DNA of 45,956 nucleotides from an uncultured Verrucomicrobiota bacterium (GTDB lineage Bacteria; Verrucomicrobiota; Verrucomicrobiia; Chthoniobacterales; JACTMZ01): assembly GCA_903953565.1 (NCBI GenBank), contig CAJBKE010000042.1:1-45956 (forward strand), read 5' to 3'. A program made the position numbers and the translations under genes. Below are positions 23,280 to 32,463 of the stretch, one piece after another. The notes below the pieces were generated by a model. That model worked only from the letters and a program-made list of their open reading frames with translations, made no database searches and was not told the origin of the DNA. Numbering within the stretch: position 1 is the first letter of the stretch; each line of letters starts with the position of its first letter.

Positions 23280-25561
23280 ACACGCAGGAATTGGCAGAGA
23301 TTTTACACGGAGCACCCCGCCGCATCCACCTCATCGGGGTGGCCGGATCGGGGATGAGCGGCATCGCCGGTCTCCTGCTTGCGCTCGGCCATCAGGTCAG
23401 CGGCTCCGACAAGGTCGATACCGTCGAGGTCAAACGCTTGCAGTCCCTCGGGTTGGATTTCCGCACGCCGCAGCGCGCCGAGGACGTGGTCGATGCGCAG
23501 TTGGTCATCTACTCCTCCGCGATTCGCGAGGGCAACGCGGCCTTTGATGCCGCGCAGCGGCTGGGTAAACCCATGGTCCGCCGCGCCGAGGCCCTCGCCG
23601 CGCTCGCTCTCGGGAAAAAAGGAATCCTCGTGGCGGGAATGCACGGCAAAACGACAGTTTCGGCCATGACCGCCCACGCCCTGCGCGCGGCCGGAGTCCA
23701 TCCCTCGCATTATGTCGGCGCGGAAATTCCCATTCTCGGAACCAACGCACGCTGGGATGCGGGCGGCGAATATTTCGTCGCAGAGGGGGACGAGAGCGAC
23801 GGCACGATCGTGCTCTACCATCCCGAGCACACCATCGTTCTCAATATCGAACCCGAGCACCTCGACCACTATGCGGACCTTGCCGCGATCGACGCGGCCT
23901 TCGGACGGCTTCTCGATCAAACCACCGGGAATATATTCTACTGTGCCGACGATCCCGGTGCGGTCCGCGTCTGCGCCGGTCGTCCGCGGGCCGTTTCCTA
24001 CGGCAAAACCGGAACCTATTCCTGCACCGATATCCGTTCCTCCGGTTTCGTCTCGGAATTTTCATTTTGTCATAATGGTCGCGAGTTGGCCCGCGTGACC
24101 CTGAACGTTCCCGGAGAGCACAACGTGGTCAATGCGACCGCGGTGCTGGCTTTGGCCGCCGAGCTGGGTCTCGACGTGGCCAAATGCGCGGCCAGCCTCG
24201 GCAGCTTCCGCGGTGCGCGGCGGCGCTTCGAGGTGGTCTATTCCTCGGATGACTATCTTCTGATCGACGACTATGGTCATCATCCGACCGAAATCGCCGC
24301 GGTGGTTCGCGCCGCGCGTGACGCCGGCCGGCAGCGTGTTCTTTTGCTCTTCCAACCCCACCGCTATACGCGAACCCAGGCCCTGAAAGACGATTTCGGA
24401 CGGGCGCTTGCCCTCGCCGATGCCGTGGTGGTCACCGATGTGTATGCTGCGAGCGAGGCTCCGATTCCGGGAGTGAGCGGACGTCTGGTCGCCGATGCCG
24501 CCACCGATTCCGGATCCAGTCATGCCTCCTACGCCGCCTCGCGTGCCCAAGCCGGTGTGGAAGTCGGCCGTCTTTTGCGCCCCGGCGATCTGCTCGTCAC
24601 GCTCGGAGCGGGAAACATCCACGAACAAGGCGCGGTCTTGGCGCGTGATTTGCAGACCTTGGAAAAATTGCGCGCGGCCATGGGCCCTGGTGTGGCGAGG
24701 TTGTACGAGCCGTTGGCCAAGCACACCACGATGCGGGTGGGGGGTCCGGCCCAATTCTGGCTGGAACCGGAGACCGAGGAGGGCTTTTGCGAGCTGGTGC
24801 GCACCGCGCACGAAGCAGGGATCCCGTTCATGGTCATGGGACGGGGTTCGAATCTCATCGTACGCGATGGCGGATTACGCGGCGCGGTGGTGCGCTTGCG
24901 CCGCGGGGTCTTCGGTGAGTTCAGCGTGGAGGGTGATCACATACGCGCGGGTGTCGGCGTGCGGCTCAAAGCTTTGAGTGGCGCGGCTATCACGGCCGGA
25001 CTCGAAGGATTCGAGTGGATGGAGGGAATCCCCGGCGATGTCGGCGGATGTTTGCGCATGAACGCGGGCGCCATGGGTGTCGAGGCCTTCGATCAGGTCG
25101 AGTCGCTGCGTTACGCGGACCAGGAAGGAAATATCCTCGAAAAATCACCGCGCGACCTCGATGTGCATTATCGCAATGTGCCTTTGCTGCGCACGAATTA
25201 CGCGCTGTCCGCGCGTTTCCGCGGCCGCAAATCCACGCCGGCGGAGGTGGAACGCCGCACGCGCGATTACTCCTCCAAACGCAAGGCATCGCAACCTGCC
25301 GGCGCCAGTGCCGGCTGCATTTTTCGCAATCCGGACGGCGGTAAAGCGGGGCAGCTCATCGATGCCTCGGGACTGAAAGACTCGCGGGTCGGCGCGGCAC
25401 GGGTTTCCGATGTGCATGCCAATTTCATTCTGAACGAAGGCGGCGCTACGGCCTCGGAAGTCCTCGCGCTGGTCGAACAAGTCCGCGCAGAAGTTCTGAA
25501 ACAGCATGGAGTCCGCCTCGAGACCGAAGTGCAAATCATCGGCGAGGAGGTTGCCGCATGA
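23276..25561 (+). CDS. Bifunctional UDP-MurNAc--L-Ala ligase / UDP-MurNAc dehydrogenase (MurC-MurB fusion)
   Basis: 761-aa fusion of two enzymes of UDP-MurNAc-peptide synthesis. Residues 1 to about 460 are MurC: IHLIGVAGSGMSGIAGL, P-loop GMHGKTTVSAMTAHAL, EGDESDGTI, NIEPEHLDHY and DDYGHHPTEIAAVV. Residues about 470-761 are FAD-dependent MurB: KHTTMRVGGPAQFW, MGRGSNLIVRDGGLRG, GIPGDVGGCLRMNAGAMG, ending VHANFILNEGG and VRLETEVQIIGE. In MurB the residue that is the proton-donating Ser in E. coli is Cys681 (SAGCIFRNP). MurB catalyses the NADPH step before MurC, so fusion couples successive reactions. There is no stop or frameshift between the parts. Confidence 0.95.
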   Translation: MNTQELAEILHGAPRRIHLIGVAGSGMSGIAGLLLALGHQVSGSDKVDTVEVKRLQSLGLDFRTPQRAEDVVDAQLVIYSSAIREGNAAFDAAQRLGKPMVRRAEALAALALGKKGILVAGMHGKTTVSAMTAHALRAAGVHPSHYVGAEIPILGTNARWDAGGEYFVAEGDESDGTIVLYHPEHTIVLNIEPEHLDHYADLAAIDAAFGRLLDQTTGNIFYCADDPGAVRVCAGRPRAVSYGKTGTYSCTDIRSSGFVSEFSFCHNGRELARVTLNVPGEHNVVNATAVLALAAELGLDVAKCAASLGSFRGARRRFEVVYSSDDYLLIDDYGHHPTEIAAVVRAARDAGRQRVLLLFQPHRYTRTQALKDDFGRALALADAVVVTDVYAASEAPIPGVSGRLVADAATDSGSSHASYAASRAQAGVEVGRLLRPGDLLVTLGAGNIHEQGAVLARDLQTLEKLRAAMGPGVARLYEPLAKHTTMRVGGPAQFWLEPETEEGFCELVRTAHEAGIPFMVMGRGSNLIVRDGGLRGAVVRLRRGVFGEFSVEGDHIRAGVGVRLKALSGAAITAGLEGFEWMEGIPGDVGGCLRMNAGAMGVEAFDQVESLRYADQEGNILEKSPRDLDVHYRNVPLLRTNYALSARFRGRKSTPAEVERRTRDYSSKRKASQPAGASAGCIFRNPDGGKAGQLIDASGLKDSRVGAARVSDVHANFILNEGGATASEVLALVEQVRAEVLKQHGVRLETEVQIIGEEVAA

Positions 25562-26478
25562 AGACCGCGGATCTGAAAGACCTTCATCTCGCCGTGCTCA
25601 TGGGCGGCCCAGGATCGGAACGCGAAGTCTCGCTGCGTTCCGGGACGGCGGTGGCCCGCGCGTTTCGCGGAGCAGGCTACCGCGTGAGCGAGGTAGACGT
25701 GAAAGGTCCGGATTTCGAACTGCCGGATGGCATCGGCCTGTGCGTCAACATGATCCACGGCACTTTCGGCGAGGACGGACAAATCCAAGCGATCCTCGAG
25801 CAGAGCGGTGTCGCCTACACCGGGGAAGGCGAGGCCGCGAGCCGCATTGCCTTCGACAAGCTGGCCAGCAAAGAACTTTTCGTCCGGTCCGGCGTGCCGA
25901 CGCCCCGCTCGGAAGTCATCGCTCCGGGGGCCAAGCCCACGCTGCCTCTGCCCATCGTGGTCAAGGCACCGCGCGAAGGCTCGAGCGTCGGCGTGCACCT
26001 GGTGCGGGAGGCCGGGCAACTCGAGGCCGCGCTGGCTGATTGCGCCAACCTCGATCGCGAAATCCTGATCGAGGAACTGGTTGAGGGACGTGAATTGACC
26101 GTCGGCGTGGTCGGAGACCGCGCTTTGGCCGTGGTGGAAATCCGGCCGCACGAGGGTTTCTACGATTACGCCCACAAATACACCAAGGGCGCGTCTGAAT
26201 ATTTCTGTCCCGCGCCACTCGATGAAACCACCACCCGCCGCGTGCAGGAGACGGCCGTTGCAGCGCACCGCGCCCTCGGTTTGAAAGTCTATTCACGGGT
26301 CGATATCCTATTGCGGGCGGACGGCGAGCTTTTCGTGCTCGAAGCGAACACCATTCCCGGCATGACCGAAACCAGCCTGCTGCCCAAAGCTGCCGCCGCC
26401 GTGGGTGTCGACTTTCTCGCGCTTTGCGAGGAGATCGCCGGACTTTCCCTGCAACATCGCAAAACTTCCAAGTCATGA
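25558..26478 (+). CDS. ddl: D-alanine--D-alanine ligase
   Basis: 306-aa ATP-grasp enzyme making D-Ala-D-Ala for MurF. The N-terminus LAVLMGGPGSEREVSLRSG and MIHGTFGEDGQIQAILEQSGVAYTG are typical; ATP-grasp features include FDKLASKELF, PIVVKAPREGSSVGVHLV, EILIEELVEGRELTVGVV, YDYAHKYTKGASEY, SRVDILLRADGELFVLEANTIPGMTETSLLPKAA. The metal-binding Glu and Asn are in FVLEANT. It overlaps the murC-murB gene and ftsQ by ATGA on either side. Confidence 0.97.
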   Translation: MKTADLKDLHLAVLMGGPGSEREVSLRSGTAVARAFRGAGYRVSEVDVKGPDFELPDGIGLCVNMIHGTFGEDGQIQAILEQSGVAYTGEGEAASRIAFDKLASKELFVRSGVPTPRSEVIAPGAKPTLPLPIVVKAPREGSSVGVHLVREAGQLEAALADCANLDREILIEELVEGRELTVGVVGDRALAVVEIRPHEGFYDYAHKYTKGASEYFCPAPLDETTTRRVQETAVAAHRALGLKVYSRVDILLRADGELFVLEANTIPGMTETSLLPKAAAAVGVDFLALCEEIAGLSLQHRKTSKS

Positions 26479-27410
26479 GTCTCTTTTCGTCCAAGAAACC
26501 ACGCTCGCGCCGCCGTCCGGCCCGCCGCAAACGTCGCGAGCATCTTCTCGAGGTCACGGCCACCGCGGAAACCGAACGCCGTCGGCGCAACCAGAAGGCG
26601 CTGCTTTATGTTTTCGAGGGAATTTTTCTCGCCGGTCTGCTCGCCGTGGCATGGTTCGGGGTCACCCTTTTCATCGAGCAATTTTTCACCAAAAACAAAA
26701 ATTACGATGTCCGCATCGTCGAGGTGAATACCGATGGTGTCATGACCCGCGAGGAGGTGCTCTCCAAAACGGGGATCCGCGAAGGACTAAACATTTTTTC
26801 GCTCAATCTCGAAGCGGCGCAGAAAGCATTGGCCCTCATACCCGAGGTGAAGTCGGCCAGCGTGCAGCGCAATCTTCCCGACACGGTGACCATCAGCATC
26901 GAAGCGCGCCGTCCGATCGCCTGGGTGGCTCCGGGCGACACGGGGGCCGACCCCTCGACCATGGAAACTTCCTGCCTGGTCGATGAAGATGGTGTGATGA
27001 TAAAGCCCCAGGGCTTCGAGGTATCGCACACGCGCTTGCCCGTGGTCTATGGGGTGCCGACCGAGCAGTGGCGCATCGGGGACAAAATCGAAATGCCCGA
27101 ACTGGAGGCGGCGCTCGATTTGTTCACGTTGGCGGCGGAACGCAGCAATCCGCAGGTCAGTCTGCGCGCCGCTGACATCACCAAAGGTTGGTGCATCGTG
27201 GCTTGGAATGATCCGCAGACCAGACTGACCTTCGGCTTGAAGGACATTCCGGCCCAACTCGACCGCCTTCAGGTCATCCTCTCCCACGTGGATCAGACCT
27301 CACGGCGGATCGCCACCGCCAACCTCATCCCCGAGCGCAACACCCCGGTCATCTTCGTCGGCGAAGCACCCGAAGCCGAGACCGTCGAGAATGCGGCCAA
27401 GAAACCCTGA
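26475..27410 (+). CDS. ftsQ: Cell division protein FtsQ
   Basis: 311-aa bitopic membrane protein. A very basic cytoplasmic region (residues 5-45, many Arg and Lys) precedes a transmembrane helix at about 49-70, then a POTRA domain (about 78-150: DVRIVEVNTDGVMTREEVL, GLNIFSLNLEAAQKAL, SVQRNLPDTVTISIEARRPIAWV), then the beta domain. FtsQ, with FtsL and FtsB, regulates the FtsWI synthase at the division site. The start at 26475 overlaps the ddl stop. The C-terminus has an acidic/Ala tail of no known role. Confidence 0.92.
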   Translation: MSLFSSKKPRSRRRPARRKRREHLLEVTATAETERRRRNQKALLYVFEGIFLAGLLAVAWFGVTLFIEQFFTKNKNYDVRIVEVNTDGVMTREEVLSKTGIREGLNIFSLNLEAAQKALALIPEVKSASVQRNLPDTVTISIEARRPIAWVAPGDTGADPSTMETSCLVDEDGVMIKPQGFEVSHTRLPVVYGVPTEQWRIGDKIEMPELEAALDLFTLAAERSNPQVSLRAADITKGWCIVAWNDPQTRLTFGLKDIPAQLDRLQVILSHVDQTSRRIATANLIPERNTPVIFVGEAPEAETVENAAKKP

Positions 27411-27418
27411 TCACGACC

Positions 27419-28633
27419 ATGGCGCGACCTTATCTCCATGTCGGTCTGGAAATCGGAACCTCCAAGGTTGCGGCGATCATTGCCGAGACGCGCAGCGACG
27501 GATTGTTGCGCATCATTGGCGCGGGCGAAGCGCCCTCGCGCGGCGTGCGCAAAGGCGAGATCGTCGACATCGGGAAGATCACCCTGTGTCTGACCGATGC
27601 CGTTTCCGAGGCGGAGGAAAAAGCCGACCGCGAAATCACCGAAGTGGTGGCGGCGGTGACCGGTGCCCATCTCGACAGCCTCAACAATCGCGGCGGCGTG
27701 CCTATTCCGGAGGATCGTGACGAAATCGAGGAAGAGGAGATCCAGGAAGTCGAGCAAAGCGCCCTCGATGTCACTATCCCGTCGGGAAATGTTTTTCTCC
27801 ACACCATCATCCAGCACTACTACGTGGACGGACAGGAGGGTGTGGCCAGCCCGCTCGGCATGATCGGACGCAAACTCGAAGCGGCTTTCCACATCGTCCA
27901 CGGGACGAAAACGCGCATCCAGAACAACCTCCGCTGCATCCGCGAGGCCAACCTCAAGGTCACCAACGTGGTCATGAGCGCCGTCGCCTCGGCCCACGCG
28001 GTGCTCGAACCGTCGGACCGCGAACTCGGTGTCCTCGTCATCGATATCGGCGGCGGCACGACCGATTACATCCTTTTCCGCGATGGCTCCGTGCGTCAAA
28101 GCGGCGTGCTCGCGGTCGGAGGAGACCACATCACGAACGACATTTCCATCGGCATGCGCGTTCCGACCAAGTGGGCGGAAAAACTCAAAGTCGAAGAGGC
28201 TGACGTTGCTCCCGGCGCGACGAGCGTCCGCGGGTCGGTCCAGATCGAGGATCCGACATTTGCCGGCGGACAGATCGAGCGGCGCGTGCTCAACATTGTG
28301 ACCGAAGCGCGCGTGCGCGAACTTCTCACTCTGGTCAAACGCCGTCTGCAATTCGACCGTCAGGCCCAATTCGTCGGCAGCGGTGTCCTTCTTACCGGCG
28401 GCACCGCCGAGCTCAAAGGTATTGCCGCTTTGGCTTCCGAGATTTTCGGTGTTCCCGCGCGCGTGGCTTCGCCCCGTCCGCTCATGGGGCCGAGTGCGCT
28501 TTTCGAAAGTCCGCGCTTCAGCACGGCAGTCGGGCTTGTCCTTTACGCGCAGGCCGCGCAGGAAGCGTTGGACGACATTTCCATCATGGACCGTCTGCGG
28601 CGCAAGATCGGGAGGTTCATTCCCGGGATATGA
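27419..28633 (+). CDS. ftsA: Cell division protein FtsA
   Basis: 404-aa actin-like ATPase that tethers FtsZ to the membrane. Actin-fold motifs are HVGLEIGTSKVAAII (phosphate 1), VLVIDIGGGTTDYILF (phosphate 2) and GVLLTGGTAELKGI (adenosine). The SHS2/1C subdomain (about 80-165) contains VTGAHLDSLNNRG and FLHTIIQHYYVDG. The C-terminal 16 residues, with DRLRRKIGRFIPGI, form a basic amphipathic helix fit for membrane binding. It starts 8 nt after ftsQ, and its stop overlaps the ftsZ start. Confidence 0.96.
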   Translation: MARPYLHVGLEIGTSKVAAIIAETRSDGLLRIIGAGEAPSRGVRKGEIVDIGKITLCLTDAVSEAEEKADREITEVVAAVTGAHLDSLNNRGGVPIPEDRDEIEEEEIQEVEQSALDVTIPSGNVFLHTIIQHYYVDGQEGVASPLGMIGRKLEAAFHIVHGTKTRIQNNLRCIREANLKVTNVVMSAVASAHAVLEPSDRELGVLVIDIGGGTTDYILFRDGSVRQSGVLAVGGDHITNDISIGMRVPTKWAEKLKVEEADVAPGATSVRGSVQIEDPTFAGGQIERRVLNIVTEARVRELLTLVKRRLQFDRQAQFVGSGVLLTGGTAELKGIAALASEIFGVPARVASPRPLMGPSALFESPRFSTAVGLVLYAQAAQEALDDISIMDRLRRKIGRFIPGI

Positions 28634-29874
28634 TTTCCATGGGTACCAGCGGCCAGTTGGCCACGCCGGTTGCACCGGTCACTTCGATCAAGGTCATCGG
28701 CGTGGGTGGCGTGGGTCTGGCCATCATCGAGCATCTCGCCGGGGAGGGCGCCGTTCTCTCGGAATGCGTGGCCATGCATACGGACGCGCAGGCTTTGCTT
28801 GGCTCCTCGGCCGCGCACAAAGTCCAACTCGGCCGCGAGGCCACCACGGGTTTGGGCGCGGGTGGTGATCCGTCCGTCGGCCAAGCGGCCGCCCGTGAAA
28901 GCGCAGGCGATATCGCCGAGGCCTGCTCGGGAACGCAATTGGTCATCCTTTGCGCCGGCTTGGGCGGAGGGACAGGCTCGGGTGCCGCGCCGGTCATTGC
29001 GCAAGAGGCGAAGAAATCCGGCGCCTTGGTTGTCGGGGTGGTCACGCTTCCTTTCGCCGGTGAGGGCGGCAAGCGGGGAGAGCAGGCGCGCGCCGCGCTG
29101 GCCCGTCTTGGACGCCACTGTGTGGCCGTGCTTTGCTTTGAAAACGATCGCATGACCGAGCTTGCGCCTGCCGAGGCGCCGGTGGCCGAGACCTTCCGCG
29201 CGGCCGGCGATGTGCTGGCTGGAGCGGTGCGCGCGGTGGCGCGAATGGTCGGGCTCCCCGCGGTCATGCCGGTGGGGCTCGACGAATTGATGCAATCTTT
29301 CCGCGGTGGCGATGCGCGTTGCCAGTTCGGACACGGCTCGTCGTCGGGCAGCGACCGCGTGCGGGAGGCCGTCGAGCAAGCCCTGCGCAGCCCGATGCTG
29401 GACGGAGGACGCATGCTGGCCGAGCCCGGCAATGTGCTGGTCCATGTGACGGGCGATGCCACGCTGAGCTTGGCCGAGGTGCAATCCGTGCTGCGGCAAC
29501 TTTCCCGTTACATCGAAGACAGCTCGCAAATTTTGCTCGGCGTCGCGACTGATCCTGCCCGATCCGGGGAATTGGGAGTAGCCATCATGGCGGCCGCCCG
29601 TGCCACCGGCTACGCGGACTACGAGGAAGAAGAAATCGAACAAGAGATTCCGGTCGAGTCTGCCGGCGCAACGGACGGCGACGGCGAGAAACCGGCCAAA
29701 CCATCCGCCAAACGCCCGAAGGGCACCAAGAAAAACGATGCCGGGCAGACCCAGGAGGAACTCCCGCTTGATCAGGCTATGCGCGGACGTTTCAAAGACC
29801 TCGACCCGACCATGGTCGACGGTCAGGACCTCGATGTGCCGACGTTTATTCGGCTGCGAATCCGTCTGAAATAG
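28630..29874 (+). CDS. ftsZ: Divergent cell division GTPase FtsZ
   Basis: 414-aa tubulin homologue that should form the division ring. Conserved features are IGVGGVG (23-29), TDAQALL, GLGAGGDPSVG (74-84), the tubulin signature GGGTGSG (112-118), GVVTLPF, FENDR and AAGDVL, then an acidic/Lys-rich linker and a C-terminal peptide (401-414, LDVPTFIRLRIRLK) suited to FtsA binding. The conserved Asn after GGVG is replaced by Ala31, and NTDAQ is HTDAQ. Most strikingly the catalytic T7 loop, NxDFAD in E. coli, aligns as PVGLDE (214-219). Position after ftsA fixes its identity; GTP hydrolysis may be altered. Confidence 0.93.
   Translation: MISMGTSGQLATPVAPVTSIKVIGVGGVGLAIIEHLAGEGAVLSECVAMHTDAQALLGSSAAHKVQLGREATTGLGAGGDPSVGQAAARESAGDIAEACSGTQLVILCAGLGGGTGSGAAPVIAQEAKKSGALVVGVVTLPFAGEGGKRGEQARAALARLGRHCVAVLCFENDRMTELAPAEAPVAETFRAAGDVLAGAVRAVARMVGLPAVMPVGLDELMQSFRGGDARCQFGHGSSSGSDRVREAVEQALRSPMLDGGRMLAEPGNVLVHVTGDATLSLAEVQSVLRQLSRYIEDSSQILLGVATDPARSGELGVAIMAAARATGYADYEEEEIEQEIPVESAGATDGDGEKPAKPSAKRPKGTKKNDAGQTQEELPLDQAMRGRFKDLDPTMVDGQDLDVPTFIRLRIRLK

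Positions 29875-29892: not shown

Positions 29893-32463
<2,571 letters not shown>

Follow-up and report, generated by a model that had tools for sequence, protein, structure and literature searches.

The two aspartates of the T7, or synergy, loop of FtsZ, which lie in the motif Asn-x-Asp-x-x-Asp, are generally held to be invariant between species and to be necessary for assembly or hydrolysis. D46, Q48, R143, N208, D210 and D213 of the Staphylococcus aureus protein were reported to be conserved across species (Ruiz et al. 2022, PMC8936486). In that enzyme, D210 of the top subunit (D209 in Escherichia coli) swings to place the water molecule, D213 (D212) stays put, a water molecule connecting it with R143 in the bottom subunit, and a K+ ion is held by N208 (N207) (PMC8936486). 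Assembly was abolished by each of the substitutions D210N, N208L and D213N, so the canonical site does not tolerate such losses, and R143K or Q48A lowered the GTPase activity about six-fold and stabilised the polymers (PMC8936486). For E. coli D212G, a nearly tenfold fall in GTPase activity was measured with a chimera, and an earlier report cited in the same paper put the activity at less than 1% (PMC7320174).

The FtsZ of Verrucomicrobiota was already known to be divergent (PMC1845146, PMC9871819, PMC12283558), as the first-pass annotation of the present locus had noted. The Verrucomicrobium spinosum protein was found to differ at 8 conserved positions and was called canonical; the text of that paper names no T7 residues (Yee et al. 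2007, PMC1845146). A search of open-access papers brought up no description of a loss of T7 residues in verrucomicrobial FtsZ, and a prior description in the subscription literature is possible.

The ftsZ locus and its T7 loop

The window, the whole stretch of 45,956 nucleotides that was analysed, carries on its forward strand an intact tail of the dcw cluster in the order ddl-ftsQ-ftsA-ftsZ, followed by clpB. The D-Ala-D-Ala ligase gene ddl (25558..26478) precedes ftsQ (26424..27410), which has a POTRA_1 domain, and ftsA (27419..28633), the stop codon of which overlaps the start of ftsZ in ATGA. The ftsZ gene (28630..29874) encodes 414 amino acids and has clpB (29893..32463) as its 3' neighbour. 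It was the sole gene of the FtsZ/tubulin family found in the genome, the completeness of which is 95.7%; neither a second, canonical FtsZ nor a tubulin was found there.

The product matched Pfam Tubulin (PF00091, 127 bits, 1.5e-36) and FtsZ_C (PF12327, 51.9 bits, 9.6e-14), both above the cut-off, and scored 246.8 bits against NCBIfam TIGR00065, below the equivalog cut-off of 295.2. Solved FtsZs were 33-37% identical to it across about 305 residues, and an AF2 model (39 input sequences; pLDDT mean 83, and 85 for residues 211-220) superposed on them with Z of about 41 and an rmsd of about 2.5 over about 305 residues. BtubA/B and eukaryotic tubulin were considered and ruled out, as the best matches by sequence and by fold were FtsZ. 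Both Pfam domains, the GGGTGSG signature, the FtsZ fold, the adjoining ftsA and a C-terminal FtsA-binding-like peptide, LDVPTFIRLRIRLK (29830..29871), which contains LDVPTFIRLR and is matched in relatives, were all present, and the protein is a true FtsZ, though divergent.

The T7 loop (29269..29286), in contrast, does not have the two-acid motif. It reads P214-V-G-L-D-E219 against N207-V-D-F-A-D212 in E. coli. Both phmmer comparisons with the Bacillus subtilis, Klebsiella and Methanocaldococcus jannaschii proteins and MAFFT alignments placed P214, G216 and E219 opposite N207, D209 and D212. When all sequences were aligned to a profile built from canonical, non-verrucomicrobial FtsZs only, the register was the same in 211 rows and different in none, with 10 further rows not covered. 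In the AF2 model, helix H7 spans residues 185-208, residues 214-216 fall in the H7-H8 loop and H8 begins at 217, with D218 and E219 in its first turn. A one-residue insertion between H8 and the next strand could suggest that the alignment is at fault and that the true N-x-D-x-x-D lies elsewhere, the outcome that had been named beforehand as refuting the claim of an altered loop. We consider this hardly credible: the several methods gave an identical register, which ruled out the alternative registers, and the modelled H7, loop and H8 are arranged as in known FtsZ, with the Z score already given. As far as the sequence and the predicted fold allow, an artefact of alignment is thus refuted.

The other sites of the protein were changed to differing degrees. 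The T1 loop GVGGVGLA (24-31, 28699..28722) has Ala31 for the canonical Asn, and the T2 loop HTDAQ (50-54, 28777..28791) has His for Asn43 and keeps the Asp and Gln, D52 and Q54. The T3 loop GLGAGGDP (74-81, 28849..28872) and the T4 GTP-binding signature GLGGGTGSG (110-118, 28957..28983) are intact, and the T5 region E145-GGK-R149 (29062..29076) keeps the Arg that corresponds to R142 in E. coli and R143 in S. aureus. The segment ENDRM (171-175, 29140..29154), a clade signature, has an acid for the canonical P164 and Met for L168. Thus the first-pass annotation was right in its reading of the T7 changes (Asn to Pro, first Asp to Gly, last Asp to Glu), of Ala31 and HTDAQ, and of the retained GGGTGSG and C-terminal peptide.

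Distribution of the two T7 acids

Of 57 genomes from the window's order nearly all had an FtsZ, as did 144 of 145 across the phylum. D209 was gone from every one of the 50 FtsZs read from the order, replaced mostly by Gly and otherwise by Thr, Ser or Ala, and was also lost in two further families of the same class (f15 and f18). Among named relatives, position 209 was Gly in 77 of 80 and Ser in 2, and one metagenome-assembled genome (MAG, L200) retained N-V-D-F-A-D. To judge from these relatives, the group comprises Chthoniobacterales, Akkermansiaceae/Luteolibacter, including the isolate Luteolibacter pohnpeiensis, and Verrucomicrobiaceae/Prosthecobacter, the last represented by Prosthecobacter MAGs and by Verrucomicrobium sp. 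BvORR034, with the loop R-M-G-I-A-D; MAG names such as 'Akkermansia muciniphila' are the submitters' labels. Sequences rather than species were counted, and a few genomes probably appear twice, in a named and in an unnamed row. In a quick-search FtsZ tree made with the T7 columns left out, the rows that have lost D209 formed one clade of 76 (SH-aLRT 100). The loss is therefore not peculiar to the window's genome: the altered loop reported in the first-pass annotation is real, and its scope was drawn too narrowly, as the loss of D209 marks out a branch that spans two orders or more.

Across 132 FtsZs of this clade, position 209 was Gly in 89%, position 212 held an acid (Asp, or Glu as in the window) in 131, and position 211, Ala in E. 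coli, held an acid in 109. Asn207 was still present in 27 of the 132, most of them from records under the names Akkermansiaceae or Luteolibacter, and can therefore outlast D209. Of all changes in the protein, the one most strongly specific to the clade is the replacement by Glu or Asp of the Pro in canonical PNDKL (P164 in E. coli), which was seen in 98% of the clade, is rare elsewhere and coincides with the loss of D209. Only the fixed Glu at 212, the lost T1 Asn and the His of HTDAQ mark the window's genus, the His doing so within the order only, as the same type of His also occurs in Verrucomicrobiaceae.

A neighbouring clade of the same class (families f14, f17 and f20-f23; 22 rows, SH-aLRT 98), probably Opitutales and relatives, showed the mirror image: D209 and mostly N207 were kept and D212 was replaced by Thr, Ser, Ala or Gly. 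In a tally of 209 verrucomicrobiote FtsZs, which leaves out the very divergent families f16 and f19, only D209 was lost in 142, only D212 in 46, neither in 17 and both in 4, so that exactly one catalytic Asp was missing in 188. Outside the D209-lost clade, all three canonical residues were kept in only 7 of 78. Divergent FtsZ copies from CPR bacteria group with those of Verrucomicrobiota. The T7 loops were very heterogeneous across the phylum, with 10 state changes on the tree at D209 and 12 at D212. When losing one acid and keeping the other was scored by independent pairs on the tree, the result lay in the expected direction (about 3.2 against 0.1) with a median p of 0.25, the pairs being too few. 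Across independent lineages, the loss of D209 showed no signal of correlation with a newly gained acid at 211 or with the loss of N207. The mirror pattern thus covers two large clades together with some smaller lineages and does not so far amount to a statistical law.

The control FtsZs from outside the phylum kept N, D and D in 50 of 50, in a set of low diversity that consisted of E. coli and 49 proteins from IMG/VR contigs, 43 of which share one T7 loop. Set against these controls, the 89% Gly at 209 in the clade goes beyond chance. These 49 genes (L222-L270) lay on contigs classed as viral and came from many samples, the shared T7 segment being PGQINIDFADIKR; they may be phage-carried or host carry-over.

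The TIGR00065 cut-off was passed by only 14 of the 145 genomes of the phylum. Since 130 of the 144 with an FtsZ match fell below it, automatic annotation may miss or misname verrucomicrobiote FtsZ. Among the named control genomes 13 of 14 had a match, all 13 above the cut-off. In family f16 (L085-L087, genomes of 2.3-2.5 Mb), FtsZ was recognised only in its GTP-binding half and the T7 loop was not identifiable; in Methylacidiphilum-like bacteria, FtsZ is reported to have been detected only when an alternative query was used (PMC5147048). In families f25 and f34 of the same phylum there are second FtsZ/tubulin-like reading frames (L138, L139 and L140) of about 366-376 amino acids with GGGTGNG, located away from the dcw FtsZ and scoring only about 29-36 bits against TIGR00065, which are possibly another tubulin-like family.

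How the altered site may work

The ftsZ gene is under purifying selection. Within the genus, among pairs drawn from the window, L003, L006, L142 and L144 only, dN/dS (NG86) was about 0.10 for L006-L142 (dS 0.39), 0.16 for L006-L144 (dS 0.73) and 0.18 for the window and L003 (dS 1.45). Of 310 columns ranked by conservation in the D209-lost clade, Gly209 was 58th, the acid at 212 was 76th and position 207 was 246th, a pattern that suggests a re-set loop in which 209, 211 and 212 are held and 207 is free to vary.

We lean towards the view that this is a true, working FtsZ, the T7 loop of which was rebuilt a single time, in the ancestor that the sampled Chthoniobacterales and Verrucomicrobiales share, turning a two-acid GTPase into a one-acid GTPase with probably slower hydrolysis. 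In that ancestor D209 would have become Gly and an Asp would usually have been gained at A211, with the second acid (D212) retained as Asp or Glu and N207 released to vary. The filaments would assemble head to tail as usual, and the single acid at 212 (E219), together with R149 of the neighbouring subunit and perhaps D218, would orient the attacking water; GTP hydrolysis would then be slower than in E. coli and the ring would turn over more slowly. The roles of D209 and N207 are missing here and E219, R149 and D52/Q54 remain; a one-acid site is the most economical reading. The constant register, the single D209-lost clade with its conserved 209 and 212, the low dN/dS, the intact dcw cluster and FtsA-binding peptide, the status of the gene as the only ftsZ in its genome and its essentiality in V. 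spinosum speak for a working enzyme of this kind. Against it, the sequence is without two of the three T7 residues that S. aureus FtsZ needs for assembly and has the third conservatively changed. D218 would be a poor direct stand-in for D209, to judge from helix geometry, and it cannot be the general solution, as 23 of the 132 have no acid at 211. Of the two options offered by the first-pass annotation, hydrolysis through D218/E219 or a much more stable polymer, the near-universal acid at 212 favours the former without showing it.

The main rival to a one-acid site is that the GTPase is almost inactive and the filaments are stable, in which case the ring would be a slowly exchanging scaffold and division would be independent of treadmilling. 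The same loss of two of the three catalytic residues points that way, and E. coli D212G can yet assemble into ring-like vortices, which are, however, static (PMC7320174). In addition, searches of 19 genomes from this order gave no match to MinC, ZapA or SepF, while the same searches matched 6, 4 and 7 of 14 controls; the usual tuning of the Z-ring thus seems absent, which fits unusual ring control and proves nothing. However, D212G concerns the acid that the window protein retained, not the one that it lost, and a dead site would have no need of the acid present at 212 in 131 of 132 clade members, so we regard this explanation as rather unlikely. Less probable still is that selection is relaxed and the T7 changes are drift, FtsZ decaying in this superphylum toward the loss seen in Planctomycetota and Chlamydiota, which are without it (PMC5147048). 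The heterogeneous loops, the repeated state changes at both positions and the few genomes above the TIGR00065 cut-off would agree with decay, but dN/dS is low, the clade holds Gly at 209 in 89% and an acid at 212 in 99%, and both acids are missing in only 4 of 209. Moreover, V. spinosum cannot live without ftsZ (PMC12283558); Gly at 209 was read in its congener BvORR034. Finally, another new acid, such as E/D171 of ENDRM, might have taken over the role of D209, and the change at the P164 place, the strongest in the clade and coincident with the loss, invites this idea. In known FtsZ, however, that segment lies near the guanine/ribose side of the pocket, away from the gamma-phosphate, which makes such compensation very improbable.

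Comparison with known systems

Taken together, a large and successful bacterial branch is without one of the T7 aspartates and its neighbour is without the other. We would give an even chance to the broader proposition that, where one branch of orders is left with the second Asp/Glu alone and the neighbour with the first alone, FtsZ is a one-acid GTPase or division proceeds with little GTP turnover. If true, such split one-acid sites would contradict the idea that neither aspartate can be dispensed with. The one-acid clades are natural variants in which the role of each carboxylate, and the GTP turnover that a Z-ring needs, can be tested, and they bear on how FtsZ has changed in a superphylum in which it has disappeared from two phyla. 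Inhibitors with reported contacts to N207, D209 and D212 of FtsZ may act differently in Verrucomicrobiota.

The window protein resembles the canonical FtsZs of E. coli, B. subtilis and S. aureus in its fold, T3 and T4 loops, T5 Arg, C-terminal FtsA peptide and place in the dcw cluster. It differs from them in the loss of N207 and D209, Glu for D212, the acid at 211, the lost T1 Asn and ENDRM for PNDKL. V. spinosum FtsZ belongs to the same clade, judged by BvORR034 with its D209 to Gly change. The proteins of f14, f17 and f20-f23 have likewise lost one catalytic Asp and kept the remaining site, but in them D209 is kept and D212 is lost. E. coli D212G and S. aureus D210N and D213N also are without one of the two T7 acids; these mutants, however, are laboratory-made and have strongly reduced GTPase or do not assemble, whereas the loss in the window's clade is natural and old. 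Alpha-tubulin, with Glu at the D212 place (E254 in NVDLTE), offers a parallel for E219, so the change of the last Asp to Glu, although real, is milder than was first implied; unlike the window protein, alpha-tubulin still has the Asn and the first Asp.
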